A DNA stretch of 64,000 nucleotides from Yponomeuta sedellus (taxonomy: Eukaryota > Arthropoda > Insecta > Lepidoptera > Yponomeutidae): the NCBI GenBank assembly GCA_934045075.1, contig OW203751.1, positions 8,999,321-9,063,320 on the forward strand. The letters run 5' to 3'. Below, piece by piece: positions 7,119-63,895 of this stretch. The notes beneath the pieces were generated by a model that was not told where the DNA came from, did not search any database, and was given only the letters and a program-made list of their open reading frames with translations. The translations under genes and the position numbers were made by a program. Every line of letters begins with the position of its first letter. Positions within the stretch are counted from its first letter, which is position 1.

Positions 7119-7222
7119 TCAATGGAATCAATATATCCTATTTTCACACTCAAATATCGCGTTTGCCTAGAAGACTTTGGCAGGTGATAACGTATCTCAT
7201 GCCCTTCCATTCCTTCCACCAG

Positions 7223-31480: not shown

Positions 31481-31799
<319 letters not shown>

Positions 31800-32190: not shown

Positions 32191-32240
32191 AAAACTTTGA
32201 TGTTTTATTATGATGTTATATTTTGATTTTATAAAAAGGT

Positions 32241-36100: not shown

Positions 36101-39100
36101 TACATACATACATACATACATACATACATACATACATACATACATACATACATACATACATACATACATACATACATACATACATACATACATACATACA
36201 TACATACATACATACATACATACATACACATGCACACTCTCTCTCTTTTACTTTAATGTTTTGCATTCTCCACTATCTGTCCTCTAGTGTTAATAAAATC
36301 GTATTTATTGTAACTTTGATTGTACTCTTTCTGAATCATCATCATCCCATTATGTCCGTATTTAGGGGCACAGGCCTCTTCTCTGAGGAAGGTATAGGCC
36401 ATACTCCACCACGGGGGCCAAGTCCGGATCGGTGAAGGCTGGCAAGACTAGTGGCTGGTCCTACAGTCAGAAGTTTTCAAGCCGCCCCTAAGGCCTGTGA
36501 CTTGGCTTAACAACTACCATCTATCGACGAAAATGATATTTATTATAAAACTTAAAGAAGGTTAAATACCCCGTACTACGTAAAAACCTGTGTTACGAAA
36601 AGTCCTGCTCTTTCGATTACCTTTGTGAAAAAAAACGACGGCCTCGGTGGCGCAGCGGTTTGGCACGCTGACTGTAAAACCGAAGGTCTCGGGTTCAATC
36701 CCCGGCCTGGTCGAACTAGGAAAGAACTTTTCTAGTTTGTCTCGGGTCTTGGATGTTATCTATGTATTTATTGTATTAAATCTATAGTCGAGTTAGCACC
36801 TATAACACAAGTCATTTAGTTGTACTTAGTATAGGGCTAACGAGATCTGTGTAATATGTCCATGAATATTTATTTATATGAATTATTATTATTTTTTACA
36901 ATTTCTTAAAATAGTAGTATACAGTTCGATATTACTTTTCAACAAATGCTTATAACGAAAGGCAAGGATTTTGGGCCAAACGTTCTTGGCCCATATATGC
37001 GGATGATCGAGATGATCGAAAGATACGGAATTCAGAGTGCAGTTTCGGTACAATATATTCGGGAACTCGGGAAGTAAATAGATAATTTAGGAAAAGTAAA
37101 AAAAGGAGACAAAAGTTAATGACTCTTCAGCATAGATGGTATTGCATGAGACGTAATTGCATATTAACAACTATATGATACATTCTATAACTGACAAAAA
37201 CTTAACTGCAGGTTTGCTAAAGGTCATTCGAATGGTAGCGTGGTGTTCGGGTCATCTATCTCCCTCCAAAATGGTTGAGACTGATGATGGCTGACCTCTG
37301 CGTTATGCTCGTGAACGAGTGCTGTTCGTGTGTGTTCGCAGCACTTATGTTTTCCTCTACTATTGTGAGACATTTGACTAATGCTTTGGCATTTAGGGTT
37401 GTCAATGGCAATCTTATTAGGTTTACATTATGGCAACTGATGTATTTGGTATTAGGATGACTTGAGAAAAGATGGTCAGAATGGAGTTCTTTTTCCTGCT
37501 GCATTTTTCTCCACTACAATACGGCCCGAAGGCAGCGGCTTACATTTTATATTGTACATTGACATTCAGCAAATAGAAAGTTAATTATTTACGTTGAAAT
37601 AAATTGGATTGAAGTGAATTGTATTGAATTGCATCACAGATCATACTGATGGGCAAGTCTTTAGCGCTGATTTTTTGTCTCTGACATATGTATGACATTT
37701 TTGACAGCCTATGACATTACGACGAGACCGTACCAACAAACTCAACTGTACACTTACTTGGTAGGGTTCTCGCGAGCCCACTTGAGGCACAGATCAGTGA
37801 AGTGACCCCATTGCAGAGGGTTGATCGATCCCGAGGTCACGTTGTATACTGGACAACGGCCGGGACTGCGAGGGCAAAATACACGGTTAAATGCTGAATT
37901 AAACTATAAATAAATTGACAGTGGACTACATAATATAGCCTGAAGAAGAAGAAGAAGAAATTGATTGTCATCAACTCTTGGTATGTCCTTACTGCTGGGA
38001 CATGGGTCTCTTCCTGAATCGCAGGAAGGTCAAGCAATACTCCACCACAGGGGCCGAGTCCGGATTGGTGGAGGATTGTAAGATAGTGGCGGAAATTACT
38101 GTCAGAAGCTATCAAGCCGCCCATAAGGCTTCTCAGATGGTTTAAGAAGGGAAGCGCTCGGAAAATGCCACTAGAAGTAGTCACGCGATGGTCACCCATC
38201 CAGTACCTGACCGCGCCTGTTGTTGCTTAACCGAGTACGTGATTGATTCAAATCACTCGGTTCCACTAGTCCACGAACGCTTCTAGGCTTACAAATACTA
38301 ATATTACGGATAAAGTTGAAATCGAGTCCAGAAATTTAAGATTTAAAACACTTCAGTCCATCATAAAACGTATCCAGATAATATGTTTCCAATATTCATT
38401 ATAAGTTCTCAAGATTCTATTAATTGGGAGAACTTTTGGGTAGTTTTCCAGAATAGCAGGAAAAAAGTGTCCCTTTTAATTCACGATCGGGTCAAGCACT
38501 AATTCAGTTAAAATGACTCACTTGTCGACGCCCTGTCGCCAGGCGGCCAGGATGCAGGAGTCGACCACCATGTCGACTGGCACCAGGTCGACCACATACT
38601 TTTTTCGGCAGTACCCTGAGCGGTACGTGCCGCGAGATATCTCCATTATTATGCCTGAGGGAATAATTATATAAAAGTATAGTAAACATGCATTTATTGC
38701 GACCAACAAAAGAAAAAGAAGAATAAAAGGAGAAAATACAAATAATGACTTCATAGTTTTTAAAAACCTATTTAGAGGCTTAAAATTGCACCCATGCCGG
38801 GACTCGAACCATGTTTTTTGGGGTAGAGACTCTGGGGCCATGGGGTCTAGAGGCGCGACTCCTGTTTCATTAACTCCTCCACAAATATGCAGCAATGGGT
38901 CTCTGACCCGAAAGCCACAAATATATAGCCCTGTCTGTATATTTGTGGCTTTCGGGTTAGAGACTCTGGGGCCATGAGGCCCGGAGGCGCGACTCCACTT
39001 TGAGGAGATCTCTTCGCGCCTGGCCGTCGCTTCAGGAGACCCGGGGGCTGGTTCCTACTTTGGCCAAAGGTTTGCAGTAGCACCGAGAAGGCGACAACGT

Positions 39101-42100
39101 ACTACTACGGTACTTCCCTGTCTGAGACCATCGGGCCCAAATATTTTATTGAAACTTCTTCTTCTTTTCGGGCCAGCGATTCGACCAGTCTATATTCTTA
39201 CTACCCAATAGTTGGGCACTGCAATCGCAGCGGCTCTGGCCTCTATCAACTCCTTCAGAGTGCAGGTGTAAGGGCACAATGGGCATTGGAGCAGGTGCAC
39301 CGTGGATTGAAACTACGAAATAGGTTTAAAAAGTAATTTGTCATACCCTATATTATAACGGTGTGCGAGTAATAGATTTACAGTCCCGTATAAAAGGGAG
39401 TAATAGTGTGTGAGTTACAAACCTAAAGTCCCTTCAAAAAGGGATTATAAAGAGGGATTTAAAAATATCCTTAAAAACAGAGGTTTCCAACTAAAACTTA
39501 CAATATAAATAAAAAAGGTTTACGAAAAATTTCTGTAGCCTTTTATGTGTGAAATGTAATGTGTATTGTAATGTTATTTAAGGTAAGTAATGTAATTTCA
39601 TGGGAAAGCGATACTGAAATACGAGTGCGTCTCGAAATTGCCCGAGCTTCATTTATGACGTTGAGTAAAGTACTGTGCTTTCGGCAACTCTCCATCAAAC
39701 TCCGCAATAAGATCCTGCATTGTTATATATGGCCTGTCGTTCTTTACGGATGCGAGTCATGGACCGTAAAGAAAGAACTCAAAAAAAGACTCGCGGCTTT
39801 CGAGATGTGGCGCTACCGACGAATGCTCCGGATCAGCTGGACCGAAAAAGTCACCAACGTTGAGGTCTCAGACGGATGGACACGAAGGTGGATCTTGTCC
39901 GCACCATCAAGCAGCGGAAAGTAGCTTACTTAAGCCATGTGCTGCGATGCAGTAAATACCAATTACTGCGGACTATTTTGATGGGCAAGGTGGAAGGAAA
40001 GAGAAAAGGCCGGGCAGGAGAAGGATGTTGTGCAACATCAAGGAGTGGACCGGTGTTAAAACCGCAGAGGAGCTGTTCAGAATTGCACTGAACAGAGATC
40101 GCTGTAAAGAGCTGACTGCCAACCTCCAGAATGGAGAGGCACTTTGAGAAGAAAAATGAAATGTGTCATATAATTTCTTTTTAAAAAGTTGTAGAAATAT
40201 TTTTTATTCTATATTTATTTTATTAAATAAAATAAAATAAATAAAAACAGCACTAAAATAATTGATTTTACCTATAATATAAAAATACAATCCCTAATTG
40301 GGCTTTGTATACTTTGTAAAGATAAAGTGTACACAGTTAATGATCAAAACGGAAACGATGGAACTGTCGTCGTCACCTTGTGACAAAAGTCCCCAAAATA
40401 AAACAGATTAAATAAAAAGAAGACAAATTTAACCAAATATTTTTAAAGATAAAAGTTGGAATTCTAAAGTTGATTTGGTTATACTTACTACGCGTAAAAT
40501 TATAGAGCTAAATGATTAATTTTAAAGATCATTACTGACTATGGTAGTGATAGTGTATCAGTAACAGAAAGATAACTATGATAGTGATAGAGAATCTGAC
40601 AGTAACAGAGAGGCTGAGAAGGACTGACTTATCACACTCTCACTGTCACTATCACAGTCACTTTCACTATCAGTGATAGCAGCATCAGCATAGCTACATG
40701 ATGGAAACTTTTATTTTAGAGTATACTTCAAATACAAGATGTGGCTTACCAGTGACACCATAAATATTATCGATCCAACCCGGGAACGGATCGTGCAGAG
40801 CAGCTGTCACTGAAAACAAAAGTGTATTTTATCTTTGTGAGGTTATAGAACATTTTATACATAATAAAACTGGTACGACTTCAGCACTGTGTTTTAATTA
40901 TACTAAACTAGCTAGTGACCGCGACTTCGTCTGCGCAGGCTTAGTATTTCGAGTAGCTTGTATTCATATCGACCCTTGTATGTCTCCACTTTTGATACCG
41001 CTGGACGCTGTATAAATCATCTCATTACGTAGATGCAAAAGGCGAATCATCATCATCATGTCCCCACTGCTGGGGCACAGGTCTCTTCTTGCATCGCAGG
41101 AAGGTTAGGCCATACTCCACCACGGGGGCGAAGTCCGGGTTGGTGGAGGATTGTAAGACAGTGGCGGGCCTTACTGTGAGAAGTTATGAAGCCGCCCATA
41201 AGGCCTCTGACATGGCTTAACGACTGCCATTATATGACAGCCGGCACCAACGGCTTAACGTGCCTTGCGAAGCACGGAAGCGCTCGGAAAAATGCCACTA
41301 GCGGTAGTCACGGGACGCTCACCCATCCCGTACCTGACCGCGCCTGTTGTTGCTTAACCAAGTGATTGATTCGCCATTCGCCTATGATTTGCCATGATAG
41401 GCCACGAGCGCTTGTATTAGCTTCAATTATTTTATATACAATCAATTATTTTCGGCCTGTACGTAATACAGAGAATATTGAAAAGAGGTTCGAAATTTCA
41501 CTCTTTCTCTCCCTGACAGAAGGCCTGTGCCCTGCAATGGGGCGTTTATAGGCTACATAAGACAGGTCTCGATCAGATTCACAGTGCTCTATAAATACTA
41601 TTAATATGATTGAGAGATTGCTGTTGGTTTACAAAAGTGATCTGTAAAAAACCTTTGATTTTTTTGCTTTTGGTGTCATTAATAGTTTCATTCTAATTTT
41701 ACTATTTTTATTTTTAATGCACTAACCCGTGCTAAGGACAATTTAAAAAAAATATTTAGAGGCTAAAAATTCCACCCATGCCGGGATTCGCACTGCGACC
41801 TCTGGCTGGCTAGCCGTGCCAGCGCTCTTTCCAACTGAGCTAATGTGCGACTCACCGGCATCAGTGAAATTTCGAACCTCTTTACATTATTCTCTGTATT
41901 TGTACGTAATGCAGGCAGCGACATCTGGCTGAAGTAAATTGCATCACTCACAGCCGCGAGTACCTACTTTGCAGTTAGGGTTTTACATCGCAATGATATC
42001 GCTGTACCCACATGGTTATACTATTTTAATTTTTAATGCACTAACCCGTGCTAAGGACAATTTTAAAAACCTATTTAGAGGCTAAACATTCCACCCATGC

Positions 42101-45100
42101 CGGGATTCGAACCCGCGACCTCTGGCTATCCGTCGAATCCCGGCATGGGTGTAATTTTTAGCATCTAAATAGGTTTTTAAAGTTTTATTCTACTTTTACA
42201 GTTTTTCCACCCCACCGCTACGAGTATTCGAAACGACCTTTCTGCTCCCTGTAATTATATTTTCAGTCTATCTAGTCCAAGTTCCCATGAAGACCATTAA
42301 AAAACCATAACCGCGTAAACGATACGCTATTGATTGATATTTTTTGTCAGAGATCTCAATGACTGGTGACCTGTGCAGCCATAGTGAGAGTGTGAAGTAG
42401 GAGCTCACTAATAGGTCGGAAAGTCAAAGCCATATGGCTGGCTTCTCAAAGGAAGGGCTCTATAGGTCGAATAGAATACTCCAGAAGTGCCGCTTTGGAA
42501 ATCACGTTCGACGACCTCTGTGGCGTAGCGGTAGCACATCTACCTACCATGCAAGAGGTCCCGGGTTCGAGTCCCGGCTGGAAACAAAAAAAATAGCCCC
42601 AGGTCTTGGATGTTTACATGTTTGTGATGTCGTTGTTTCTGGTTCCCACGACACAGGGTATCCTAGTGTGGGGCCAGAAGCAATGTATGTGCCTGTATGT
42701 AAATGTTAAATGAGATATTTCACCAAAGCGTACAATAGAATAGAATAGAACGGAACGGAAAGGACTCGTGTCCCAGCAGTTGGGACATGCAAGGGTTGTT
42801 ATCGACCACTTTACCTAATTATCCTCCTCTTTGACCTTGAAAATAACATTTGTAAATATGTATTTCAGTATAATTTTATATTTTTCGTGCTATTTTATAT
42901 ACCCACGTACTTGCATGTGTATTTAAATTATATTTGTAATAATTAGTTAAAAACCTATTTAGAGGCTAAAAATTTCACCCATGCCGGGATTCGAACCCGC
43001 AACCTCTGGCTATCCGTGCCAGCGCTCTACCAATTGAGCCAATGGGCGACTCACGGCATCGTTCCAATGTTAAACCTAACTGCAAAGTAGGTAGTCGGGG
43101 CTGTAAGTAATGCAATTTGCTTAAGTCAGATGTCGCTGCCTGTACGTAATACAGATAATAGTGTAAAGAGGTCCAAAATTTCACTGATGCCGTGAGTCGC
43201 CCATTGGCTCAATTGGTAGAGCGCTGGCACGGATAGCCAGAGGTTGCGGGTTCGAATGCCGGCATGGGTGAAATTTTTAACCTCTAAATAGGTTTTTAAA
43301 GTTCCTTAGCACGGGTTAGTGCATTAAAAATAAAAATAGTATAATATTTAGTTAACGTAGGTTATGTAATAAATCACTCCTATATTATATTGTTTACTGG
43401 CACTGCCCTTTTCAGTGTCCGCGTTATCGTGGGTAGCTGGAAGAAAATACTATCTAGTATTGAGCTCGCCTTTGCACAAATTTGTTTTTAGTGCAATAAA
43501 TAATTTTTAATTCATTCATTTGTAATATATAAAGACCTCTGGCTATCCGTGCCAGCGCTCTATCCAACTGAGCTAATGGGCGTCTCACCGGCATCAGTGA
43601 AATTTCGAACCTCTTTACACTATTCTCTGTATTACGTACAGGCAGCGACATCTGGCTGAAGTAGATTGCATCACTTACAGCCCCGACTACCTACTTTGCA
43701 GTTAGGTTTTTACATCGGAATGATATCGTACCCACATGATTATACTATTTTTATTTTTGATGCACTAACCCATGCTAAGGACAACTTTAATGAAAATTAG
43801 AACAATGGTTTTCTACTTTTATTTTCGAGGTCAGGGTCAACCTGGGAGGTTCAAAAACGAATAGTCCTTTTATACCTTCTCAGTTCGTTCCACATGTTCA
43901 TTTAGAAATCTGTCTATGAATTTGGTATACTGTATGTTTCAATTTGGCTTTCAGTGGAATTAAACTTTGGTTTTTCCAAGTTGTGTGGTTGGGTGGATTA
44001 AAAATGCATTGGGGGGAGTGCCCAACGACCCGGGCTTGGTATTCGGCAAATCTGAGCTTTTTGTTTTATTGATGATTGACTGAAAGTCAAGTGGGATGAT
44101 CCAGTTTTATTTCAATAATGAATTATAACCGGATGAACCAACTAAACTTTTTGTCGGAAAAGTCCGACCTGATTTCGCTCTGATCAGAGCTCTTGATATA
44201 ATATATAATTATAGAAAAATAATTTCTTACTCTATAAAACTTTTTAGTACAAATGCGAGTTTAATACTGGATAGTATTTCTTCCAGCAAACCAACCTAGG
44301 ATTATGACAGGCCAGATATAGGCCTCAGGGCATAGGCCTGAGAGAGAATATGGGATTAATTACCTCGTATTGACAATTTCAATTGCAAGTAGAACACCTC
44401 AAACACAAATCTTCAGGAGGTTTCCCTTCACTGTCTCTCTCTCTCTCTCTGAGAGGAGGTCTGTGCTCTGCTGAGACATATAAAGGGTACATGAAAATGT
44501 ATTGAGCCCAACATTCACGAAAGAAGTGCAGGCTGTCATGTAATGACGGTCGTTAAGCCATGTCATGGCCTTATGGGCGGCTTGATAACTTCTGACAGTA
44601 AGGCTCACCACTGTCTTGCAATCCTCCACCAACCCGGATTTGGCCCCCGTGGTGGAGTATGGCCTAACCATCCTGCGATGCAGGTAAAGATCCGTGCCCA
44701 AGCAGTGGGGACATGCAATTTAAGTGTTCATAACGTACAAATGCAAGCTTAATACTAGATAGTGTTTCTTCCAGCAAACCAACCTAGGATTGTGACAGAA
44801 CTCAAACAGGCCTCAGGGCACAGGACTGCTTTCAGAGAGAGAATACGGGGATAATTACCGCGAATTGACAATTTCAATTGCAAGTAGTTTCAGAATGTTT
44901 CCCTTCACCGTCTCTCTCTCTTTCTTTCTCTCTCTCTCTCTGAGAGAAGGTCTGTGCTCTGCACTGAGACGTATAAAGACTTCATAAAAAATGTATTGAG
45001 CTTGGGCTGGGCTGGGCATTGCGTAATCGCAATCGTTAAGCCATGTTAGAGGCCTTATGGGCAGCTTGATAACTTCTGACAGTAAGGCACGCCACGGTCT

Positions 45101-48100
45101 CACAATCCTCCATCAACCCGGACTTAGTCCCCCTAGTGAAATATGGGCTAATTTTCCTGTGATGCAGGAAGAGACCCGTGCCCTAGCAGTGGGAACATAC
45201 AAAGGGTTGATGTCACACTCACCAATTGAAGGTCTTACAATGCAGACGGGGAGATCCACGTGGCTGTAGACGATGGACTCTGCCAGAGCCTTCGTCAGGG
45301 TGTACGTGTTGGGATGCTCTCCCTGAGGAAAAAAAGATAGAGCTGTGAAACTATGCTATTTTGTGCTGTTGATCTGTTTTTGTTGTACTGAGGCGTCCAA
45401 GCGGGCAAAGACCGGTTGGTCACTCCAGATATCGCTGGAAGGAGGAAGTAACCAAGGTCCTGCGTGAGCTTCAGGCGGGCGACTGGTAAGAGACCGCGCA
45501 GGACAGAGACAGGCGACTTCTTGTGTTGGAAGCCAAGACCCACTTCGGTCGCTAAGCCCGCAGAGTAAGTTCTATTGTTCTCTGAATGTGTTCACAAAGA
45601 CTTTCTAGTTTCTTTTTATTTTTATCATCATCGGCATATTTATCATCAGACTATACCTACTTGTCCACTGCTGGGCATAGCCCTCCCCTAATGAGTGCCT
45701 TAACGCCTTGCCTTCACCTTCCAGTTCCGCATCCATTTGCCTGCAGTTTTTCGCAGATCGTTATCCCACCTGGTCCAAGAGCGTCCTTTACGAGTCGCTG
45801 TCTCAACTCAAGAACACGTCAACATCAGCAATATTTAAAAAAACCTATTTAGAGGCTAAAAATTCCACCCATGCCCAAAATGAAATTTCGAATCTCTTTA
45901 CACTATTCTTTGTATTACGTACAGGCACACGTGTAAAAACCTAACTGCAAAGTAGGTAGTCGGTGCTGTAAGTGATGCAATCTACTTCAGCCAGATGTCG
46001 CTGCCTGTACGTAATACAGAGAATAGTGTAAAGAGGTTCCGAAATTTCACTGATGACGGTGAGTCGCCCATTAGCTCAGTTGGATAGAGCGCTGGCACGG
46101 ATAGCCAGAGGTCGCGGGTTCGAATCCCGGCATGGGTAGAATTTTTAGCCTCTAAATAGGTTTTTAAAATTGTCCTCAGCACAGGTTAGTGCATTAAAAA
46201 TAAAAATAGTATAATCAGCAATATTATTTTATTTATTGGTTCAACCTTGCGCTTTGGCGCTCATTAGGGGAGGGCTATGTCCAGCAGTGGACTAATATAG
46301 CCTGAAGACGAAGAAGATGCAGTAGCTGACAATGATATCTTGAATTTAAACCAGCATCTTCATCTTATGCATCTTCGTTGCTCGTTAATTATGGAGTTTT
46401 TTTGTCCATTTTTTCTCCAAAATGATCTAGATTTTGAAATGGGCAACTAGTTCAACTCGTAACGTTTCGTTAGTCTCAGCTGTGATACTTTGAATAAAAT
46501 CTTTTGATTGCTTGATTTTTAATCAACGATCAAAGTGGAAGTCGAGATAAGATAAGAATATTCTTTATTATAAAACATGTAAAGATACAAAGTACAATTG
46601 GCGGCCTTATTGCTAAAAGCAATTTCTTCCAGACACCCTTACGACGGAAAGTTTCTAAAGGAAATAAGAGAGGGGTAGTCGGTGCAAATATGAATATATT
46701 AATACACTACTTATATAAACGTGTGGACGTAAAATCATAATCCCTTTTTAAGCAAAGAACATCACACGGGCAAAGTCAATAGTCATAGGCAATAGTTGCT
46801 ATTCATTCAATTCTTGAGTCAAAGACGAGTTTTTACGAAATCAAAAGCGAGATCCGCATCAAAATCATGGTCCACTTAGGAACTAGGTGAATCGTCGATT
46901 GACCAAAAGAAGCACACGTAATCCACGCAAGTATTAAAACTTTATGTAGCATAACGCACGTAATATCGCCCTAAAATTATAGGACTACATATTGAGGGCC
47001 TATTACCACATACTGGTATGCAGTGAAAGTGAATCGGTGGAACTTGCCTCAGATGAGAGGTCGTGGGTCCAAATCCTGACATCTATCTAAAGTCAAGGTC
47101 AAAATGTTTCATTCAACGTACTGTAGTAACTGCTATTTTATCAGTTACAATTTTATCGTGTGTGGTCATTGCAACTTCTATGTCGTATTAGAATACACCA
47201 TTCGTCCCAAAAAATCTTATAATAAAAATGCCTGTGAGGAGTGTTGTAAGGTTAGTTGGGCTAATTCGTATATTAAACAAATTTATATATTTTATTTATA
47301 TATTTGTTTATGCTTGTTTCATTTATTGCATGCATACAAAATAACGTAAGCAATATTACAAAAAATCATTTACAAAAATTTCGTCCACAAGGCCAGAGAA
47401 AAATAATACAAAATTTATATTAAAAAAAAACAATCAGATAAACCGCCCCGAGACATATCCGACCCAAAAATACCCATAAAACTGGCAGCATTACCGCGCT
47501 GCACAGCGAGGGATATCCTTTGCATCAAAAATGCCCCTGAGCGCTAGTCAAAGCCACGGTTCCTGAGACGACGCCCTACCTCCTTAACAAAATGGAAACT
47601 ATTGGACTTTGGGGTGCTCTTCCTGGGCACCCCAAAGTCCAATAGTTTCCAGGGCGAGTGGCACAAAAAGGTAGCTTGCATGTATGCTTAATATTAATAT
47701 CAAGTATTATTAGGTCATTATTAAATTTATTCCATACTAATTTGACCGTTAGAATAAATTTATTTGCTTAGAACGTGGTACATTATGGTGGCACCTTATT
47801 AAATATGATCTCACATTCGGTTAGGTATGTTCTAACATGAAAATTTATGATAAAATAGTAATGTAGTGAGGTGTCACCACACTACAGTAGCCCTATCTGC
47901 CGATCTTATTTTATTTTATTTTTATTTTTATTTATTAAGGAAAACAAACAGTAGTACAATAACACTTTAACATAATGCTTAATTATTTAAGGTATTAAAT
48001 AATTGTACCACCAGCACCGTTAACCACAGTTTAAATATTTTGAAAAAACAAAACAGGGAATTTAATATTGTATTCTTGTGCCTTTTGAACATTGCTTTAA

Positions 48101-51100
48101 ACCGTGCATGCTTTGCGTTATAGCCGGAATTCTAAACACGAAAAGAAAAACAATATCACTTTTGGGGATAACAACATAAAGATACTGATGAACATTTGCG
48201 AAAAACTACAGTTCCATTTCAAAACATTCCATGGCCAGAGCACGGAATGTGGGGAGTGATAAAGAAAATATATCTAAATTATTTAAGTAGGTATTGTAAG
48301 ACTTAACTATTCTGTTCAAGGGGGCCCTTTCACCCGCGTTCGTTCTGCAAGGATCCGTCATAAATAAGTAGTGGGGATACGATTCTTGTATTCTCTTTGA
48401 TTTACTGGGTATTTTGAAGAAAATTTGATTAACCAACTTGCTGCAGTCAAAAGCATTATGGCATAACTTGTAAAGAAAAATTTCATCAAGAAGAATTCTT
48501 CTGTTTTTTAATGAGTTCATAGAAAATTTTGACAGGCATTTGACATAAGAACATTTGGAACGGCAACATTTAAAATTTACGGAGCGTAAAAACTTGCGCT
48601 GTACAGACTCAATTTGATCAGAATATTTATCGTAATATGGGTTCCAAATTATAGAAGCATATTCTAACTGTGACCTAATTAGTGAGCAATAGAGATGAAT
48701 AAATGTGGATGGCCGTCTGAAGTGAGTACATGTGCGCATGATAAAACCATACATCTGAAAAGCTTTGTTGGTGATGTTATTAATGTGAGTATCTAAGTGT
48801 AATTTAGAGTCCAGTAAAATGCCTAAATCTTTGATTTTAGCAACTGAATCTAAAGGTGTGCCTAAGAGAGTGTATGTGTGATGAATAAGATTTGTCTTTT
48901 TCGAGAAAGTTATTGATTTGCATTTAGTCAAGCTTAACTTCAATTTATTAGAAACGCAGTATGACGAAAAACGGTCAAGATCCTGTTGCAAGTCATTACA
49001 GTCGTCAACCGATGTAATTGTTTTATAAACTTTGAGATCATCGGCATATAAGAGAAATTTGCTATGTTTGAAACAAATAGAAATGTCATTTAAAAACAGA
49101 ATAAAAAGGAGCGGACCAAGAATAGATCCTTGCGGAACTCCTGACGTTACACAACTAGAAGCGGAGGCAAATCCGTTAATAACGACCTTTTGAGTTCTAT
49201 TAGTTACGTAAGACTGAAACCAGCGCAGCAAATTTCCGCGAATTCCATTAAAGGCTATCTTTTGAAGAAGCAACAAATGATCCACCTTGTCAAATGCTTT
49301 GCAAAAGTCCGTATACACTGAGTCTACTTGAATCCGCCTGTCCATAGATTGAAAAAGGAAATTTGTGAATAGCATTAAATTTGTAACGGTGGATCTCTGT
49401 TTGACAAAGCCATGTTGCTCTGGAATTATAATCGTGTGCAGGCTGGGGTAAATGGCATTGTGAACCAATCTTTCAAATACTTTACAGAGAGTTGAAAGGA
49501 GCGAAATTGGTCGATAATGCTCAACGTTGTTGACACTACCACTTTTATGCACTGGGGTGATATTTGCTGCCTTCCAAACTCTTGGAACGATTCCCTCTGA
49601 TAAACACTTATTATAAATTACAAAAAGAGGACTATAAATTGTGTCTGCTGTGTGTTTGAGGAAAAATGGAGGTATACCATCGGGGCCAGAACCCTTCGCA
49701 ATGTCAAGGGTCTTTAAGACCTTTATGACTGAATCCTGTGTGAGTGTGACATCTGATAAATGAACAATTGAGGAGTCTGCAGGTATTGTCTCAGGGTTAA
49801 AACTATTAATATTGGAGGGTTCATAGACTGAGCTAAAAAAATCGGAGAACAGATTACACACTCCTTCGGGCTCCGACGATTTTTTGTCCTTGAAAACTAC
49901 TGAACGAGGAACACCGGTTTTACTCCTCTTAGTTTGTATATAAGACCAAAAAATTTTTACATCTTGTTTTAATCCATCCTCTATTGAGTTTATATAGTGA
50001 GTAAAACATTCCTTACTAAGTCTCTTGAACCTGTCTCTAAAAATAGTAAACAACTCATAATCACTAATATTTTTGTATTTTTTCCATTTAATCCAATATT
50101 TATTTTTGTTTTTAAAAATATGTATAAGTGGGCGCGTAAACCAAACTGGGAAGTCCGAATTTGTGTGTGGCCTACATGGTACGTGGTTTTTTATAATAAT
50201 ATATATATTTTCATAGAATGTATCTAACGCTGACTCAGCGGAAAGGTCGCTGAGTAGTGCTAACCAGTCGATATTACGAATGTCCTTATTAATAAATTCA
50301 TATTTAGCCTCAGTAAATCTGTATTTAGGAGTGGACTTCTGGGGTAAACGATCATAGTTTGTCTCGAAACGAACATTAAAAAGTACAGGGGGATGGTGTA
50401 TGTCAGGCGGTACAAGCGGATACAGAGATGGCTCACACACACATTCACTATTGTTTGTTATAAAGTAGTCAAGAATGCGATCGTTATTATTCTTTACATA
50501 ATTAAATTGGTTAGATTGAGTTATATACAAGAATTGGCATATATATTTATCGGTCAAATTACTACTATCCAATAGTAACGGCCTGCAAACAAATCCATTA
50601 TTGGTCCAGTCTAGTGTAGGTACATTGAAATCGCCCAGTAAGTAAAATTGATCTATGTCGTCAGACATCACCTCAGTTTCGATGGAGCTCAATAGTAAAT
50701 TATACGTTTGAAAAGATTGTCCGGGTGGAACATACATCGCTGCAATAATATGGCTTTTAGAATTTTTAGAAGAGGAAGAAAGCTTGAGTAAAACGTAATC
50801 CACGATAGGTGGCATCTTCAATTGCGAGAAAGCGTCGCCTTCGCCGGTGCCGGCAGCCGAGTCCGCCGGAACGGGAGCAGGGCTCAGCCAGCAGCGGGCT
50901 ACATTTACCCCGCGCCTCACGGCGACTAGGACCCCGCCTCCGTCCGACCGGCCGCTAGCCAACCGGTCCCGATCACACCTATGTACATTATAGCGAGAAT
51001 CTATGAATTCATTATCACCTATGGAAGGTATTAGCCACGTCTCTGTGAGGACAATAATATCGTAACACTCAGAAAGAATATTTGTGTACAGTGTATGAAG

Positions 51101-54100
51101 CTTTGTTCTTAAGCCGCGGCAGTTCTGATAATAAAACGTTAATTCTTTATCCATTACAATTTGTTGAAAGTTTAATTTCGTCATAAGAAAGTGACAAGCA
51201 AAACAAGTCACTGTGGGTAGAATGTGAATTAAGAGCGTAGAATATTATATTGTATCTCTTCAACATTATTGCAGCATTGGTTTTATAAGAAATAAGACGG
51301 AATTCACAATAAGCATGAAGTAAGTAATCGGGAGCAATGTGGGTTCTTAGAAAAGATGTTGCAGCATTATTAATTCTCTTCAAATAGCTTTGGAAAAAAT
51401 GCACTGAGAGGTTGAAAGTACAGAAGGCACACTCCAAGTTCAACAGATGGGATGATGAGATGCACGGTTTGAGCAAGTTATTTAAAATTATTTGTGGCAC
51501 TGAGTTGATAAGAGCACATAGCAATATGTATGAATACACTAAGCAAGATTTCGCAAGCAGATTAAGAGTTACGAAGACAATGATAGACACAAACTTGTTC
51601 TTGAAAGCGCGAATTAACTTCGTGAGCATCCTACTCCGCACCGACGATTTTAATTTTGGAGACGTCATCAATCGAGCGAACAGGGAAAGCAGGCGTTGTG
51701 TCTGATTGTCGCACGAGAACAGTGCCGTGTTTTGTCCAGATGTATTTGTACTGGTTAGCTCGCACAGCTTGACGTGCCGCTCGAAAAATCTCTTTATTGT
51801 GCAGCGTCAGATGCTCGTTCATGTAGATCTTTCTACTCTGACCCGGAATGTGAAGCTCCTCCGAAGTAACACCTTTTGCCAGACGGTAAGCGGCGAGCAC
51901 GTTATCGCGAGCAATCTGCGAGTTAAACTTCACTATCACGTTCTTTGGATGCGCACTCTTGGCATTGGCGTGTGGGACACGGTGGACTGATACTATTGTA
52001 CTCGCAGGTATCGGGTGCTTGATGACTTCCCCAATGTGCTGAACAGTTTCCGATAGTTGCTCTCCACGTTTTTCCGGCAGATTGCCAATTTCAATGTTGC
52101 ATTGGCGAGCCCTCTGCTCCATAGTCTCTATTTTGGCATGGAGTTCCATGATTAACTTATCATTTTGCTCATATTTCTGCAGCTTAGCCTCCATTGTCTT
52201 AACATTAGACTGCACAGATGATATTTCTTTACGAAGAGCCTCGTAGTTATCACTCATAAATTGGACAGACGCTTTCAAATCACCAAACTCCTTCAGCATG
52301 ATTGCCATCTTTTCGTCATGCCTAGTTAACATCATCAGTACCTTTTCCTCGAACTGTTTAAATTCACTTTTATTTGTGACTTCATCGTTAAGCCGATTTC
52401 TGGTTGTGACGAAATTCGGAGGGGATAACAGATCCAGTGAGTTGTTGGCTGAAGCATCTGTAGCATGGTGTAAAGAGGAAGGATCGTTTGCCTGACGATC
52501 CGATGACCCACTGACGTTCTCAGGCGTTGCACTACGTTCACCAGCACAAAAAGTTACGTTCATGTTGATCACTCGCGTGGGACTTCTGTTTTGTTATGCG
52601 ATTGATGACGCGTTCGACAGCTCAGCGCAGTGTGCGTGTGTAGATAAGAACGGCGTACAGTAGTACGGTGACGAGAGCGCACGGCACGACCACGACCGGT
52701 TTGCAGCGACGCGAACAGCGGAATGAATAAACAGCCAATAAAAAGTAATAGAGGTATGAAGTATTTGCAAATAATAAAACCTCTCTTTAAACTAACCAAA
52801 AATACTTCTAGCAGTATTGAAAGATCTTAAGCGATCTTAAGCGATCACGAAGGTTAAAACATAGGGCGCGTTCAGTGCATGGGTGTGCGACCGTCTATGA
52901 CTAACGCTAGTGGCATTTTTACGAGCGGCTCCGTGCTTCGCGAGGCACGTTAAGCAGTTAGTGCCGGCTGCCGTCGATAGATGGCAGACGTCAAGCCAAG
53001 TCAGAGGCCTAAGGGCAGCTTGAAAACTTCTGACAGTAAGACCAGCGACTAGTCTTACGAACCTTCACCAATCCGGACTTGTCCCCGTGGTGGAGTATGA
53101 CCTATACCTTTCTCAGGGAAGAGACCCGTGCCCCTGGGTGGGAACATAATGGGTTCATGATGATGATGACATTATTAACGACTTTTTCTTCTTCTTCAGA
53201 CTATATGAGTCCACTGCTGGACATAACCCTCCCCTAATTAGCGCCATAGCGCCTTGTCATCAGCTTGCCGCATCCAGCATCTGCCTGCAGTTTAACGACT
53301 AGATAGCTTGAAATATTGATTGAATGAGGAAGTGATAGTTACCTGTAAGGTCTCAGCTAGTACATTGACGCTTTCAGGAGGCAGCATTTTAGTGCAGCTC
53401 ACTATTGTCTCCGGATCGTGAGGGGGAGTGTACACTCGCTCCTCAATGTGGCTTTGTGGTGCGTTGCTGTAGGCCGTGGAGACGTGGACTAGAGCCTGAC
53501 GGAGAGAAAAAGATGTGATAAAAAATCAAACAGGTGAAAAAGTAAACTATTAAAAGTAGTGGTTGCACAGATGTAAATAATTGAGTAGATAAAGTCAAAG
53601 ATAGAGTTATTAAGATTTCTAGTTTTGCTAGCGTAAATTCCCGGACTAAAAAAAACAAGATAAACAAAATTGTCATAATTACGCATCTTATTAAGTTTAA
53701 CTAATTCAAGTATTTGCAATGTCGTGGCTTAGAAACGTTGGAGCCCTTGAAGGTTGTAAACATTTTTCGCTAGTCAAAAAATGAAGAAGAATAAGAGGAG
53801 CTGACGGAACCTACGTTAAAGAAGAAGACAGAAGAAAAACACATTTATTACAAAAACAGTTATGAGACACCACAAAACAAAGTAATTAACAAAACATTAG
53901 GCGCCAAAAGAAAAAGAAGTATAACAATACCTTCAGCTTCCCCATGCAGCCAGCCAGCTTTAACAGGCTCGCCGTACCCTGAACGTTGAGCTGGGTCGCA
54001 GCGTGGAGCGGCTCGGTGAAGCGAACCGTCGCGGCAGAGTGGAACAGCACCGTTACTACAGAGTAAATGCATTTACTGAACATCAACTCGATTGAACAAG

Positions 54101-57100
54101 TGAATACCAATACCTGAAAGACTATCAATCTACATTTCATCGGTCAGCTCGTATTTGCTGCTACTATTGGACATAGGGCTACCACAACGCACGGCTTTTG
54201 GCCCTCCATTTAGCCTTCTTTTTATTGTGATTTGCAATTACTGTCTCTGGTATATCTGGTGTACCGCGAAGATCATAAAAACTTTGGCAAGCGTCACTTA
54301 CAAAGACAAGACAAGACAAGACAAAGATTTTTATTTGTGAAGCATGAGTTCATTGATAGGATGTATATAAAAAATAATTAGTTCTATACATGCTCTGCCT
54401 GATGAGGCGTACAAATTATAAAAAAGGCACCACCATTAGAAACAATAATATAAAAATGTCAACAAATTCAAATAAAAATTTTTCAGAGTAATAAAATATA
54501 ATGTCAATTTGAAATAGAGTTAATGATATATTAAAATGAAAATAATAAAAAATTAAAAATAAATGAATAAGTTAAATTTTTGTTGCATGTCAAATTGTGT
54601 AAACAGAACCAGAATAAATGTCAATTTAAAATACAAATTATATTAGAATGTCAGTCAATGTCTTAGCTGAAATTATCATCTGTCAAGAATTCTGTTATAT
54701 TATAATAAACTTTTTGTTCTAATAGACACTTTAATTTGGTTTTAAAATTATTTGTACTTAATTCTCGCAATTCCTTCGGTATTCTATTATAAACTACAGG
54801 ACCCATACAAAATATGCTTTTCTGTAACAGCGCAGTATTTGCTTTTTTCACACAAACTCTACTTTTATCTCGCTGTGTGCGAATGCTGACGACTGAGAGT
54901 GGAGGGAAAAGATTAGGGTTCGTTTTGACAAAGACAGCCACTTCGTAAATGTAGAGACAGGGCAATGTAAGAATTTTAAATTTTTCAAAATACGGTTTGC
55001 AGCTGTCTGTTGTTTTCAGACCAAACATAGTTCTTATGCACCTTTTTTGTACCTTAAAGGCAGAGTCTCTGTCCGTCGAGTTGCCGCAAAAGATTATACC
55101 GTATCTTAATATTGAGGCAACCATTCCATGATAAGCAATCCGAAGGGCATCTGGGTTTATTTTGGTCGCAAGTTTATAAAGCGCGTATGACGAGGAGCTA
55201 ACTCTTTTACATACTGTCTCATTATGTGCTTTCCAATTCAGTTTTTTATCTATAGTTAATCCCAAAAATTTTGTAGCTGATACTTCTTCTATTGTTTGGT
55301 CATCATAGTGAATTTTTAGGTCAGATGGTATTATTCTTTGACTGAAATGCATTCGTTTGGTTTTGCTCAGATTAACTCTAAGGTTATTATTATCTAGCCA
55401 TGTTATTATTGATTTTAGAGCTTCGTTAATATTGTTTTCGTAGTTATCTGGGCATCACTATTTATAGTAAATGTGCTATCGTCAGCAAATAGGGACATCG
55501 GATAAGCTGTAAACCTGGGTAAATCGTTTATATATATTATGAAAAGGAGCGGACTGAGGACGCTTCCTTGAGGAACGCCGTAGTTAAGTGTGCGTCTGTT
55601 TGAAGTGTATGAGTGGTTTTTTTTTGATTGGGTATTAATTTCCGATATTTCTGTATATTGGACTCGGTTAGTGAGATAAGATTTTATAAGTTCGGTCACA
55701 TTACCTCTAATGCCATATGCAATTAGTTTGTTTAGTAGGATAGCGTGATCAACGTAGTCAAATGCCTGTGTCATGTCCATGAAGATTGATGTAACAGGAT
55801 TTTTTATGTCTACATTTTCCATTACTACGTTTAAAAAATCATAGATTGCCATGTTGATTGTTTTGTCTTTTCGAAAGCCTTTTTGTTCATTGGTTAGGAT
55901 AGCATTTTTTTCCAAGTATGAATATATTTCTTTGTACAGATATTTTTCAAATATTTTCGAAAATATTGGTATAAGCGCAATAGGTCTGTAGTTTGCCATT
56001 AATTCCTTATTATCTTTTTTTAATAGCGGTTTTACTACAACAGTCTTTAATCGGCTCGGAAACTTGCCAGCGCTTATACTCAAATTCATTATATGACTCA
56101 GATGATTACATATTTGAAATGCTACAAATTTTATTACTTTAGTAGAGACGGTATCAAATCCAACGCTATTTGTAGTTTTTAGCGATTTAATAATTTGTAA
56201 TATGTCATAGGGTAAGCTGGGTGCTAAAAACATCGAGTTTTTAATCTTTGGGATCTTAGAATCAACTTGTTTTCCTGAATCAGGTATCGGTATAATTTTA
56301 TCAATAAAAAAGTCATTAAAGGCATTTGCTACACATTTTGGGTCCGTAATATAAGAACCATTAATATTAATCTTCCATATAGAGTCTCTAGGTAAAGTCT
56401 GTTTTGTATTGTTTATTATTTGCCATGTAGTTTTAGATTTATTTGAAGATGTTTGTATAGCATAATTATTTTGAGCTCTTTGTGTTTGTCTTATTACCTT
56501 TTTGTATATGTTACTATAGTTTTGGTAGATTTTTTTGTTGCTTTCATTAGGATTTTGTCTATAGAGCCAAAGCAGTTCTCTCTTTTTTTTTGAGCATTGT
56601 TTAATTCCCCGTGAAACCCACTTAGGTTTCTTAATTGTTTTAATAGTCACATATTTATAGGGAAAGCAGAGATCGTAAAAAAGCATAAAATCAGCCATGA
56701 AGCTATCATAAGCTTCATTTGGGTCGGTACTCTTGTAAATGTCAGAGAATGTTATGCTACTAATACACTCTCTAAATTTTTTAAGGTTCTCAATACAATA
56801 ATCTCTGCGTTTTATACGCCAAAACTTTGTTAAACTCATTCGTTTTACTGGGCATTTTAAAAGCTGAGCAGTATGATCAGATAATGATAGATCTATAACA
56901 TCAGCATTACACCTTTTTCCAAAGTTATGTGCGAAATTATCTATGCATGTCTTACTTACAAGTCTAGTTGGTTCATTTATTTTCAGTTCGAGATTATAAT
57001 TCAATAATGTATATTCCAATTCAATTGTCATTCTATTACGATTCAAAATGTCAATGTTAAAGTCGCCTGCTATTATTACACGCTTGTTTCGTTTTTTTGT

Positions 57101-60100
57101 CAATAATTGTAAAAGTATTTCTAGTTTTTCCATAAATAGTGACAGATTGTTTGCTTTTGGTACTCTATATATACAAGCAATCAATGTGTCACAACTTATC
57201 AAATCAATGGCACAGCACTCAAATACATTGCTTATTGAGAGCTTTTTTACGTCTGTTAGTTCGTTACATTTCAGACCGTTTTTGACCAAAATGCATGATC
57301 CACCTCTCTTAATATTACCTCTACAGTAACATGAAGCTAAATAAAAGTTTGGAATTACGAGAAATTGAGTACAGTCGTTCATCATAAAGTGTTCCGTTAA
57401 ACATATTACCTCTACATTAATGTTTTTGTCTAATAACTCCTCTACGCAAACTGTAAGAGCATCGCTTTTATTTAAAAGTCCCGCAATATTTTGATGCAGT
57501 ACCCATAGCCATTTATCACAGAAAAAACTTATCGCTGTCGTGTTTATTTCCATTAGGTTCAGATGTAGAGCGGCTTGTTGCTTGGGGCAGTGGAGGGTAT
57601 TCGTTTATCTCTTCGATGTGTTGCTGCACAAAATAACCCGTGACTGTAGATATCTTCCAATGTACGTTATCAAGATGAGACTAATTTATGGTTGTATAGT
57701 TAGCTTTTTATATATCTAAATGAATGGATGTTTGTTACTCAATCAGCCAGAACGGCTAAACAGACCTTACTTCAATTTGGCACCGACAAAGATTTATAGA
57801 CTATTATTTCTATGTATCTTTTTACTTTTTGTACTCAAAAAAACACATCGATATTTCAAAGAGACTGAATAGCTAGTATCAAAATATGTGTCTAATACAT
57901 TAACAGTCCCAAACCGAAAGGTTTGTCTATCTACATCCAGCAGTGGACGATGGGAAATAGATTGGACACTCACCAGTCCCCAGCATAGCCAGCTCAGCAG
58001 CCCCGACGCCCAATCCTGGGGCGGAGACGTCTCCGGCTATTGGGTACAGTTTGGCAAGTCGTTCCGGCCAGCGTGCGCGTATGCGGTCGAAAACCTGTTG
58101 AGGAAATGCTGGGTAAGTTTTTTTAGCAACAATAAAATTGTGACCCTTGAAAACTGATCTTCATCTTTCAGTTCTATCCATCCCAAGGTTGTCTGGAAGA
58201 GATCGCTTTTGGCGATAAGACCGCCAGTTGTATACGCCAATACTTTATGTAAGTCTTTTTAAATATTTTGTTTTCTGGTGTGTACAATAAAGAGATCTAA
58301 TCTAATCTAGTAATGAGATGATTTAACAGCGTCCAGTGACACCATCACTCACACCAGATGGTTGGAGGGACCACTCGGTCGCTACCATGTCTGACCCATC
58401 GTTTTATCAACAACAACATACGAAATTTGCACAGAAAGTACTCAAAATAATGAAGAATTCCATATTTCTCTCCTGTACCTACTAGCACCTGCGAGATAGA
58501 GAGCTATGACACTTTTCTTTGTCCCTGTCTTCTTTACCCTGCAAAACCTTGTCGTAAGTTCGTGTCTCCGTCCATGATTATACATTATTTATTGTTTTGA
58601 ATGTAAATTTGTATCATCATAATCAGCCCTTCGACGCCCACTGCAGCCATCAATGGGGATTTTCAATGGGGATTAATGGAATAACCCAGGAGAGGAGTTG
58701 ACCTCCCTCATGGTTTTCCAAGCTTCTTGGTCTTGGACAGTCTGCATCCCACGACTCCCAGCTACCTTAAGTATGTAGTCACACCATCTGGTGGGGGACT
58801 GCCCACTTATCGTATAATCTCACCATATTCTTCAGCAATTCCTTGTAACGCTGTTCCACAGTCAGCCCTCTCTTGGGCCTCATCAAAATGTAAATGGTGT
58901 CGATGCCCGGACAACTCCTCAGTAGTTTCTCCAGGAGAGCCTTTCCGACGAAGCCTGTTAAGAATAAATTAGGTGAGTTTAACGTTTACAAGGTGCATTT
59001 CCATGTTCGTGATATTCTTGCCTGGTTACTACTGTACGATAGTACAGGGTATCCTAGTTTGGGATCAGGACAAGGGATTGTTTTATGTGATAATTATTTT
59101 ACCAAAATATAAACTAAGGTTGAGCTGGACATTGGAGTTGATTATTTATTTTCATGGATATACCGAGTGCCGATACTAATCTCAGATCTAGACAAAGTTA
59201 GAATACAGGCGAAGATACATATGTCGAGCAGTTTTTTCCTGCATGAAAGCGTCTATCTGGATTATTCACCTTCTAACACGGCTTTTCATCAACGTCATTA
59301 TCATCATCGTCATTAGCTTACCGCTGCCCACTGATAGCTGCAAAAGTTTTCCACCAAAACCCATCTCTCACTATCCTTTGAGATCTGCATCCACGGACTT
59401 TCTTCCGACTCAACAATATCGTCAGACCAAGAGGCTGCTGGTCTGCCCACTGACCGTCGTCCTGCTCTGTCTGTGACCTCTCGAATGAGAGCAATTGTAT
59501 GGAACCGGGCGTTACTTTGCGGAAATCTATAATAGCATTAAAATGTGAAAATTACTTTGCTTAATTCCGCCAAAAATCCCACAAGCGCCATCCGGTTACC
59601 TGGTTAATTCACCGCCCTCCCTCCCCCTTTTCAATATACGAACGAACACACAACCACCGACAACAATACTTGTGTGAGAAAATACGCGACGCGTTTCGCC
59701 TCTAACACGAGGCATCCTCAGGCTCACAAGTGCAAGTGACTTTACTTTTACTTTGACTTTTACTTGCACTTGTGAGCCTGAGGATGCCTCGTGTTAGAGG
59801 CGAAACGCGTCGCGTATTTTCTCACACAAGTATTGTTGTCGGTGGTGGTGTGTTCGTATCTTGCTTCCCTGAAAAAGTGGGAAGGAGGGCGGTGCATTAA
59901 CTAGGTAACCTTGGTGCTTGTGGGATTTTTGGCGGAATTTAGCAAAGTAATTTTCACATTTTGATGAGAGCAATTTCTTTGTAGTCTATTTTTCAACACT
60001 TACCAGTGCCTCCAGTAACCAATATAACTGCTCCATCGTAGAATCCAGCTATGGAGTCTGGCTTTTCTCTGTCAGTGGTTGGGTTGTCAGTGTTTTTTAG

Positions 60101-61545: not shown

Positions 61546-61559
61546 ATAATAAAAAAACT

Positions 61560-61880
61560 TTAAAAACCTATTTAGAGGCTAAAAATTTCACCCATGCCGG
61601 GATTCGAACCCGCAACCTCTGGCTATCCGTGCCAGCGCTCTACCAATTGAGCCAATGGGCAATTCACCGGCATCAGTGAAATTTAGAACCTCTTTACACT
61701 ATTCTCTGTATTACGTACAGAGTACAGAGGTGAGTTGCCCATTGGCTCAATTGGTAGAGCGCTGGCACGTATAGTCAGAGGTTGTGGGTTCGAGTCCCGA
61801 CATGGGTGAAATTTTTAGCCTCTAAATAGGTTTTTAAATTTTTCCTTAGCACGGGTTAGTGCATTAAAAATAAAAATAGT
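61560..61880 (+). mobile_element. Fold-back tRNA SINE with perfect 14-bp duplication
   Basis: Antisense tRNA half (61567-61665), inverted leader to the apex CTGTATTACGTACAG (61707-61721), sense half (61738-61815), A-rich tail ATTAAAAATAAAAATAGT. The flanks ATAATAAAAAAACT at 61546-61559 and 61881-61894 are identical. Confidence 0.88.
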
Positions 61881-61894
61881 ATAATAAAAAAACT

Positions 61895-63075: not shown

Positions 63076-63291
63076 ATAAAGATACTACGTATGTCTAGTA
63101 CTAACGTTACGCGACATAGATTTATTTCGGTATGTCTGTTCCAATGATTCAATTTCTATGATTTTAGTTGATCTTATGTCTGTCTGCATTTATGTAAATT
63201 TTTAGTTTTTTTCTGTGTATAATTTATTTTTGAGTTTAATTTGTGTTTTGGCAATAAATTTAGTTCGCTTTCACTTTCTTATATCCTGCAT

Positions 63292-63457
63292 AGGTACATA
63301 CATACATACACACATACATACATACATACATACATACATACATACATACATACATACATACATACATACATACATACATACATACATACATACATACATA
63401 CATACATACATACATACATACATACATACATACATACATACATACATACATACATAG
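63292..63457. repeat. (ACAT)n microsatellite, ~40 repeats
   Basis: One ACAC interruption near 63310. It is directly adjacent to an antisense RTE-like 3' end, whose 3' UTR contains ATGTAATGTATGTAA (20617-20632), a possible seed for expansion. Confidence 0.95.
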
Positions 63458-63895
63458 GTAACCTCATGCCTGTATCCCAGAGGGGTAGGCAGAGACCAGG
63501 GACTGCCACTTGCCACGATTCTGACAGATCACCTTCAAACAATTTTAAAAACCTATTTAGAGGCTAAAAATGTAATGTAAATGTAAGTGATGCAATTTAC
63601 TTAAGCCAGATGTCGCTGCCTGTACGTAATACAGAGAATAGTGTAAAAAGGTTCGAAAAATCACTGATGCCGGTGAGTCGCCCATTAGCTCAATTGGACG
63701 AGCGCTGGCACGGATAGCCAGAGGTTGCGGGTTCGAGTCCCGGCATGGGTGGAATTTTTAGCCTCTAAATAGGTTTTTAAAATTGTCCTTAGCACGGGTT
63801 ATAAGTCGTTGCGTGCACGCACGCCGGTTCCGGGTACTTTTTGTTTTTCCTTTTGCTAATACATCCCCTATTTGGTCGATGTATGTCCGCCTTAT
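63458..63895 (-). mobile_element. RTE-like LINE 3' part interrupted by a tRNA SINE
   Basis: 63460-63535 and 63801-63890 match consecutive parts of 34853-35035. Between them (about 63540-63800) is a tRNA SINE: a short inverted outer end, leader, and sense module with box B GGTTCGAGTCC. About 30 bases of the LINE target are missing at the junction, so no duplication is seen. Confidence 0.75.

Follow-up and report, generated by a model that had tools for sequence, protein, structure and literature searches.

At 61560-61880 of a 64 000-bp stretch of the Yponomeuta sedellus genome (assembly GCA_934045075.1, contig OW203751.1, positions 8,999,321 to 9,063,320; the whole stretch is called the window below), a tRNA-bearing repeat lies in antisense orientation and is followed by a sense copy of itself that ends in an A-rich tail. 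The initial annotation grouped this locus with four others and proposed a short interspersed element (SINE) of no described class, in which the compound of two opposed halves is itself the unit that retrotransposes. The question raised by the locus is whether a folded-back element is copied as such or whether the fold-back is made anew at each insertion. The analysis reported here indicates that the fold-back is most likely the product of priming from both cut strands and not a ready-made folded-back jumping element. The loci are probably insertions of one abundant, non-autonomous, tRNA-bearing retroelement that was moved, as we infer, by a Penelope-type (GIY-YIG) enzyme.

The repeating unit and its head-to-head copies

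Self-consistent mapping in the window gave a repeating unit of 306 bp, which was numbered from the start of its tRNA-like segment (unit 1-73). This segment is followed by a 3' region (unit 74-104) with AGGTTTTTAA at its end, a tail (unit 105-150) with an A-rich run at its end, a spacer (unit 151-249) and a leader (unit 250-306). The unit is thus composed of a 161-bp tRNA-bearing terminal segment (unit 250-306 plus 1-104) and of the 145 bp that remain (unit 105-249), which form a spacer in the wide sense, tail included. The tRNA-like segment was matched 11 times above the gathering threshold with a covariance model and eight times by ARAGORN in the window, and the RNA polymerase III (Pol III) boxes A and B that it carries were judged by eye against the consensus. 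Full-length copies begin 57 nt upstream of the tRNA segment, not at its head, and they contain runs of five T at unit 76-80 and 95-99, so that the usual SINE-style transcription from an own Pol III promoter looks unlikely for this family.

Tandem units are directly visible at 21579-21992 and 41696-42133 and were also found at the loci L005, L006 and L010; single arms of L006 and L010 hold two and three tRNA segments, respectively. The unit is longer than the 'tRNA half' of the initial annotation and stands in tandem in some copies. Within the leader, unit 277-303 is an inverted and diverged copy of unit 61-87 (21/27 positions identical, e.g. at 61667-61693). The present unit may therefore descend from an old head-to-head junction that was later fixed; in this limited sense, inverted sequence can be incorporated into the element that replicates. 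Single copies thus also contain a hairpin whose tip is the tRNA (unit 277-303 against 61-87).

The five loci noted initially (6037-6383, 6658-6884, 41703-42183, 42951-43341 and 61560-61880) do consist of head-to-head arms, and in each of them a target duplication encloses a single insertion. Their common polarity appears only after flipping, since 6658-6884 and 41703-42183 lie on the strand opposite to that of the remaining loci. As first described, three duplications are exact (12 bp at 6037-6383, 14 bp at 6658-6884 and 14 bp at 61560-61880) and two are imperfect (14 bp with one mismatch at 42951-43341, 19 bp with two mismatches at 41703-42183), the last one exceeding the 12-16 bp that had been given. 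Scores as high were reached by at most 1.5% of 400 random site pairs for each of the five loci. Complementarity between arms amounts to 94% over 115 nt at 61554-61843 and to 99% over 98 nt, without spacer, at 6696-6891.

Head-to-head clusters in the window number 11, beyond the five first noted. Eight of them have a duplication, one arm ending near unit 104 and the other at about unit 137-163; the other three end 104/104, 104/other and 150/other. Among single-orientation copies, five end near 104, four near 150 and four elsewhere, and two are under 40 nt long.

Two fixed ends and the target site

To escape the bias of the window, a genome sample was taken, for which 10 kb were read from each of 20 contigs, always at the same coordinate (195,000 bases other than N). 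Hits under 40 nt (two in the window and four in the sample) and single copies with unplaced ends (four and three, respectively) were kept outside the end-type fractions. The sample contained 24 insertions with a recognisable end, namely 11 head-to-head compounds, 12 single copies ending near 104 and one single copy scored near 150; three single copies with other ends and four hits under 40 nt were left over. All 11 compounds had one arm ending near 104 and the other near 150. If ends were chosen independently, the chance of obtaining 11 mixed pairs out of 11 would be at most 1 in 2048. The sole sample single scored near 150 (L065) has a short AGGTTTTTAA piece on its other side. In the window, unit coverage falls after 104 (from 32 at unit 101 to 17 at unit 111) and again near 150 (from 14 at unit 141 to 6 at unit 151). 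The two end points lie 46 nt apart, and the extra 46 nt form a tail on one arm only. Five of the 12 single 104-ended sample copies start at unit 250-253, a start that was taken as the 5' end of the RNA.

A further set was selected for likeness, using 61560-61880 as the query and scoring the best 40 of 5967 candidates. It held 39 copies, of which 29 end 104/150, two 104/104 and eight have an unplaced end; among these eight, L013 and L017 proved to be 104/150 once longer flanks were read (as L006 and L010). Family abundance was estimated from the sample: 27 clusters of at least 40 nt per 195,000 bases correspond to about 90,000 in 657.5 Mb, an extrapolation from a small sample with one coordinate per contig. 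The family is denser in the window than in the sample. Exact family patterns had no match in viral contigs, and two 19-base matches were obtained in prokaryotic contigs, about the number expected by chance for the size of that collection.

Target sites were compared across the 61 head-to-head rows (39 selected for similarity, 11 from the sample and 11 from the window), 46 of which were scored 104/150. Compounds C (6032-6385) and X (45839-46217) were added by hand with their full extents and L067:9842-9982, which has no flank, was dropped, giving 47 compounds; rows ending 104/104 or with an unplaced end were left out of this analysis. A clear duplication was found in 40 of these 47 104/150 compounds with usable flanks, the seven below the duplication threshold being kept out of the matrix. 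The 40 sites came from the similarity-selected copies (25), the genome sample (8) and the window (7). Duplications measured 12-14 bp in 34 cases (11 bp in 3, 12 bp in 18, 13 bp in 8, 14 bp in 8, 15 bp in 1 and 18 bp in 2).

Oriented so that the 104 end lies to the right, the target reads AA(C)-duplication-(G)TT. An A was present at -2 in 26/40 sites (p = 5e-6) and a T at +2 in 26/40 (p = 8e-6); A was found at -3 in 21/40 and T at +3 in 23/40. In the 15 sites outside the likeness set, A stood at -2 in nine and T at +2 in ten. The matrix at the 104 nick correlated with the reverse complement of the matrix at the 150 nick (r = 0.845), and none of 20,000 column shuffles gave a value as high. In compounds, both strands are thus cut at a like motif, and the stagger hardly varies, which is what a dimeric nuclease would be expected to produce.

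These data bear on two other explanations. A palindromic DNA transposon (miniature inverted-repeat transposable element) with very long inverted ends would have long inverted arms and duplications on both sides, as observed. It is hardly credible here: the duplication length varies from 11 to 18 bp, the arms are variably truncated on the inside, one-armed copies exist and the two ends do not mirror each other, since one is longer by 46 nt.

The main competing explanation is a tRNA-derived SINE moved by a long interspersed element (LINE), with very frequent twin priming producing 5'-inverted copies. Here, copying from the primary cut would begin at one A-rich site of the RNA, and the second strand would pair with another through microhomology. 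The tRNA-like segment fits this scheme, as does the A-rich nature of both start sites (AAAA at unit 100-103; AAAAA at unit 130-134 and 136-140). By eye, flank and element agree over 9 bp at the 150 end of compound E, and compounds V, X and Y share 4-5 bp; one LINE of the window also has an A-rich repeat of similar kind at its end. Against this, the position of the second site is constant, near unit 150, the target motif of compounds is the same on both strands, full-length copies have 57 nt ahead of the tRNA segment and tandem templates recur. Frequencies also differ, as 5'-inverted copies account for 1/5554 Alu, 4/477 SVA and 639/2068 L1 insertions in the published survey (PMC2912911) against 11/24 insertions here. 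The same source describes the L1 cut motif as one-sided, TTTT/AA on the bottom strand (PMC2912911), and such a motif on the first-cut strand only, which characterizes L1-type twin priming, was not what the symmetric compounds displayed. What L1 5'-inverted copies, as presented there, have in common with the family is an antisense 5' part and a sense 3' part within one target duplication (PMC2912911). Taken together, a twin-primed SINE is an unlikely, though serious, explanation.

Two LINEs are present in the window. The LINE at 48206-52593 (minus strand) has an uninterrupted 1012-amino-acid open reading frame (ORF) with endonuclease and reverse transcriptase, an upstream 320-amino-acid ORF with a baculovirus-FP-like domain and an A-rich repeat tail near 47905-47935; the named sequences most closely related to it are lepidopteran, and a beetle ranks further down. 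In the second LINE (54663-57604), the reverse transcriptase is spread over two frames and a TCTTG-type repeat tail lies near 54300-54340. When the 3' end of the family was compared with these two LINEs of the genome, only the A-rich tail was in common, with one of them.

Inner junctions and the origin of the arms

Inner junctions were all different among the 11 sample compounds, and likewise among the window compounds, which argues that compounds are formed at insertion. The proposal that the compound is a single retrotransposing unit holds in so far as the halves enter together in one event and the layout recurs genome-wide; the compound is, as a rule, not the template. Against a role as replicating template stand the differing junctions of sample and window and the single copies ending near 104, which occur in the sample as often as compounds do (12 vs 11). 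Duplications also bracket single copies in the window, such as a 5'-truncated copy reaching unit ~101 at 13859-13924 (plus strand, exact 14-bp duplication) and a very short copy of unit 78-102 at 8826-8850 (minus strand, exact 13-bp duplication).

A master fold-back element, transcribed through both arms and retrotransposing as a compound, was the reading of the initial annotation. It can draw on the likeness set, in which scoring of the best 40 of 5967 candidates gave 39 further places that align with much of 61560-61880 (best matches 87-95% identical), and on joints shared within this set: one centre is common to L013 and L014, a second one to L024, L031 and L049, and L032 is alike at that second joint. 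These 39 places were, however, chosen for similarity and most have different centres, while the 11 sample compounds all differ in centre. Moreover, the 104-arms of L013 and L014 differ by a full unit. At the second shared joint, A-subfamily letters occur in L024 and L031, B letters in L032 and a mixture in L049; this favours repeated formation at a microhomology, the join being placed at AGAG. A master compound was rejected as the main explanation in view of the differing inner junctions and the abundance of single copies, and as an account of the family it is quite improbable; re-mobilisation of a compound may have occurred on occasion.

The arms themselves are informative. In the compound at 61560-61880 (compound Y), the 104-arm (61556-61720, minus strand) extends inward as far as unit 250, where single copies most often have their 5' end, and the 150-arm (61737-61885, plus strand) ends at unit ~149 with the 46-nt tail; the exact 14-bp duplication ATAATAAAAAAACT stands on both sides of the element. 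The antisense 104-arm of Y equals that of 42951-43341 (compound V) over the positions compared, yet the two arms of Y differ from each other at 5/101 positions, so that they come from non-identical templates. Even so, the two arms of a compound are usually similar: only 2/720 re-pairings of six window compounds were as good, and subfamily letters agree between arms in 43/47 informative compounds, most of which come from one common subfamily. The two arms would therefore usually derive from the same source locus or tandem RNA, yet be copied separately.

The variety of inner ends can be followed through the other compounds of the window. Compound C (6032-6385, exact 12-bp duplication) has a left 104-arm of unit 298-106 and a right 150-arm of unit 261-102 then 107-149. 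Compound D (6653-6896, exact 14-bp duplication) has a left 150-arm of unit 8-148 and a right 104-arm from unit 8; it is a palindrome without spacer, and its arms are identical at 91/91 positions. In compound U (41696-42184), the 150-arm exceeds one unit (unit 31-306 then 1-149) and the 104-arm covers unit 54-105; its 19-bp duplication with two mismatches falls under the stricter threshold of the target-site analysis. Compound V (42947-43345) has inner ends at unit 296 on the 104-arm and unit 167 on the 150-arm, with a 14-bp duplication containing one mismatch. Three further compounds of this kind were not among the loci first noted. Compound E (7997-8125, exact 12-bp duplication) consists of a short 150-arm of unit 127-163 and a non-overlapping 104-arm from unit 21, and its flank GGGTACAGT equals, by eye, the element sequence that comes next in the unit. 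Compound P (32051-32193, exact 11-bp duplication) joins a 150-arm of unit 82-137 to a 104-arm of unit 19-103. Compound X (45839-46217, exact 12-bp duplication) has a 104-arm with an internal deletion (unit 247-293 and 63-99) and a 150-arm of unit 177-151.

Two further schemes were tried on these structures and rejected. Ordinary twin priming with a single monomeric RNA as template would account for compounds E and P, which have short 150-arms, but not for fully overlapping or multi-unit arms. In 5'-inverted L1 copies, the two parts normally come from neighbouring, non-overlapping stretches, and no fixed second site is known. Fold-back self-priming alone fits compound D (91/91 identical) but not compound Y (5/101 different).

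At L017, L035 and L046, and nearly so at L041, the 104-arm stops at unit 250 and then reads back (CTCTGTATTACGTACAGAGAATAG). Such centres are consistent with self-priming of a folded end of the complementary DNA (cDNA); a second arm copied from RNA would look alike. Snap-back, if real, would be the part of the fold-back idea that survives, on a small scale.

Further family loci lie in the window. Compound G (11025-11398) is a complex head-to-head structure with both outer ends near 104 and no clear duplication, and compound J (12770-12891) is a rearranged head-to-head piece for which no duplication was found. The direct tandem copy at 21579-21992 (plus strand) comprises a tRNA segment, tail and spacer, and a second tRNA segment to unit ~104, with an exact 8-bp duplication (null fraction 0.03). 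Another family locus lies at 63539-63801.

Some neighbouring features were recorded. A 23-nt inverted repeat with a 1-nt spacer (6903-6949) adjoins compound D. Exon-like matches to NAD_binding_4 (fatty acyl-CoA reductase type) were obtained at 6878-7396 and 11187-11750, the second one under the curated cut-off, and several family insertions lie near or between these stretches. A short near-perfect palindrome at 47594-47650 (GGAAACTATTGGACTTTGGGGTGC...) is possibly a different small inverted-repeat element (by eye). A further tRNA-like sequence at 42510-42585, with the B-box-like GGTTCGAGTCCCGG, is perhaps the head of a different SINE (by eye). Long tri- and tetranucleotide microsatellites are located at 31385-31855, 35848-36252 and 63223-63567.

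Proposed mechanism and relation to known elements

In the mechanism that we propose, a Penelope-type endonuclease/reverse transcriptase, acting as a dimer, would cut both strands 12-14 bp apart at a like AT-rich motif. One cut end would prime copying of a longer RNA at an internal site, near unit 104. The other cut end, when it primes at all, would start 46 nt downstream, near unit 150. Both cDNAs would run toward the 5' end of the RNA, often halting at unit 250 or after a snap-back there, and would be joined by microhomology or short filler, which would yield two arms head to head, one of them bearing the 46-nt tail. Priming by the first end only would leave a single copy ending at 104.

Several observations weigh against this reading. 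Twenty-five of the 40 target sites come from copies selected for likeness to 61560-61880, and the -1 and +1 letters of the motif are biased by the calling of duplication edges, so that positions 2 and 3 were relied on. In the 13 single 104-ended copies (sample and window) with a duplication score of at least 8, A is at -2 in 6/13 and T at +2 in 3/13; since the motif of the second cut is not evident in them, the evidence for a symmetric cut is confined to compounds. The duplications of single copies are either partly chance matches or the result of a second strand broken elsewhere, and only 3/12 single 104-ended sample copies reach a score of at least 10. Four single window copies were scored near 150, one of which (30386-30534, plus strand, to unit ~148, no second arm detected) has a clean, exact 12-bp duplication; the 150 site may occasionally act alone. 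A rough motif scan of ~315 kb of partly overlapping DNA for a Penelope-like ORF gave one weak match beside stops, taken as chance, and the 306-bp unit is too short for an ORF with reverse transcriptase and GIY-YIG domains. The tRNA-like segment inside the terminal repeat has no counterpart among the Penelope features given in the accessible parts of the sources cited below. Finally, no hammerhead, a common feature of Penelope terminal repeats, and no other ribozyme was detected by Rfam at the gathering level in the window or at E up to 10 on 21400-22050, and one narrow core pattern gave 0 matches to a hammerhead core.

This last result also bears on a retrozyme-like origin, in which circular or multimeric RNA would be copied by some reverse transcriptase and head-to-head joins would be a by-product. 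Tandem, variably started units would be expected from such RNA. A hammerhead in each unit is the retrozyme feature, and neither it nor another Rfam ribozyme was found in these searches; in addition, the ends are fixed at 104/150 and the 5' ends concentrate at 250-253 (5/12 singles), so that starts are not randomly placed on a circle. We regard this origin as very improbable.

Judging from its anatomy, the family probably works like a Penelope-type element, and it is a putative member of that class. More tentatively, a SINE-like tRNA-bearing RNA could have been taken over by a Penelope-type machine, and not by a LINE, with tens of thousands of insertions (extrapolated), nearly half of them primed on two strands. 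If true, this would be a partnership between a SINE and Penelope, and its insertions would document in nature how that class of enzymes primes on two strands; with a Penelope enzyme as partner, the rule that SINEs depend on LINEs would be broken. With many short copies recording cut sites, start sites and joins, the mechanism by which Penelope-like elements integrate would become readable statistically. For annotation, fold-back repeats need not form a family of their own.

Among known systems, lepidopteran tRNA SINEs (PxSE1-3 and HaSE1/2; PMC8010984, PMC3272025) resemble the family in their tRNA-related segment of ~72 bp and their high copy number, and the two-tRNA Twin SINE of Culex, cited there, can be grouped with them as a near system. 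Unlike the family, they start at the tRNA head and have simple-repeat tails (PxSE family table), and neither inverted arms nor double ends are described for PxSE or HaSE SINEs in the accessible parts of PMC8010984 and PMC3272025. Helenus and TRIMp3 also carry a tRNA-like segment in their terminal repeats, which are direct (PMC10886601, in part); they are of the long terminal repeat type with duplications of 4-5 bp, against 11-18 bp and inverted arms here. A search of literature titles and abstract starts, with subscription papers, Repbase and Dfam outside its scope, retrieved no tRNA-bearing element of this structure among the entries listed. For a partnership of Penelope with SINEs, it gave one paper, on non-autonomous Penelope elements of heliconiine butterflies. 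These short elements, likened here by description only, are similarly non-autonomous and prominent in some Lepidoptera (PMC6685494, accessible text).

The statement that no described class has such a structure overlooked Penelope-like elements, in whose published structures the terminal repeats stand head to head and one of the two carries a short tail (PMC11167929 and PMC3846280, accessible parts, as for the sources that follow). A purified Penelope-like protein, described as the first active in vitro, cuts and extends both strands and initiates internally at two neighbouring positions; the stretch between these start sites is what forms the tail of some genomic copies (PMC11167929). In rotifers, Penelope-like elements have inverted terminal repeats, an optional 31-bp tail on one of them and partial tandems; palindromic centres are ascribed to self-priming, and foreign sequence is mobilised in trans (PMC3846280). 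In the monarch, penelope-1_dPle reaches 9901 copies (PMC8848866). A minimal type I hammerhead ribozyme is reported in Penelope terminal repeats (PMC7761336).

Compared with the Penelope/Poseidon clade (Poseidon of Anolis, Pen2a of Adineta vaga), the family differs in its unit without ORF, in which a hammerhead was not found. The tail is 46 nt against 30-40 published for Penelope-like elements, the duplications are mostly 12-14 bp against 8-10 bp in A. vaga, and the cut motif is AAC/GTT against ATT. The likenesses are partial tandems, present at 21579-21992 and in L006 and L010, terminal repeats in inverted, head-to-head arrangement (11/24 sample insertions), a short tail at one end (11/11 compounds of the sample, 8/11 of the window), two adjacent internal start sites, AT-rich targets with flanking duplications, and a cut on both strands, which compounds of the family display at a like motif.
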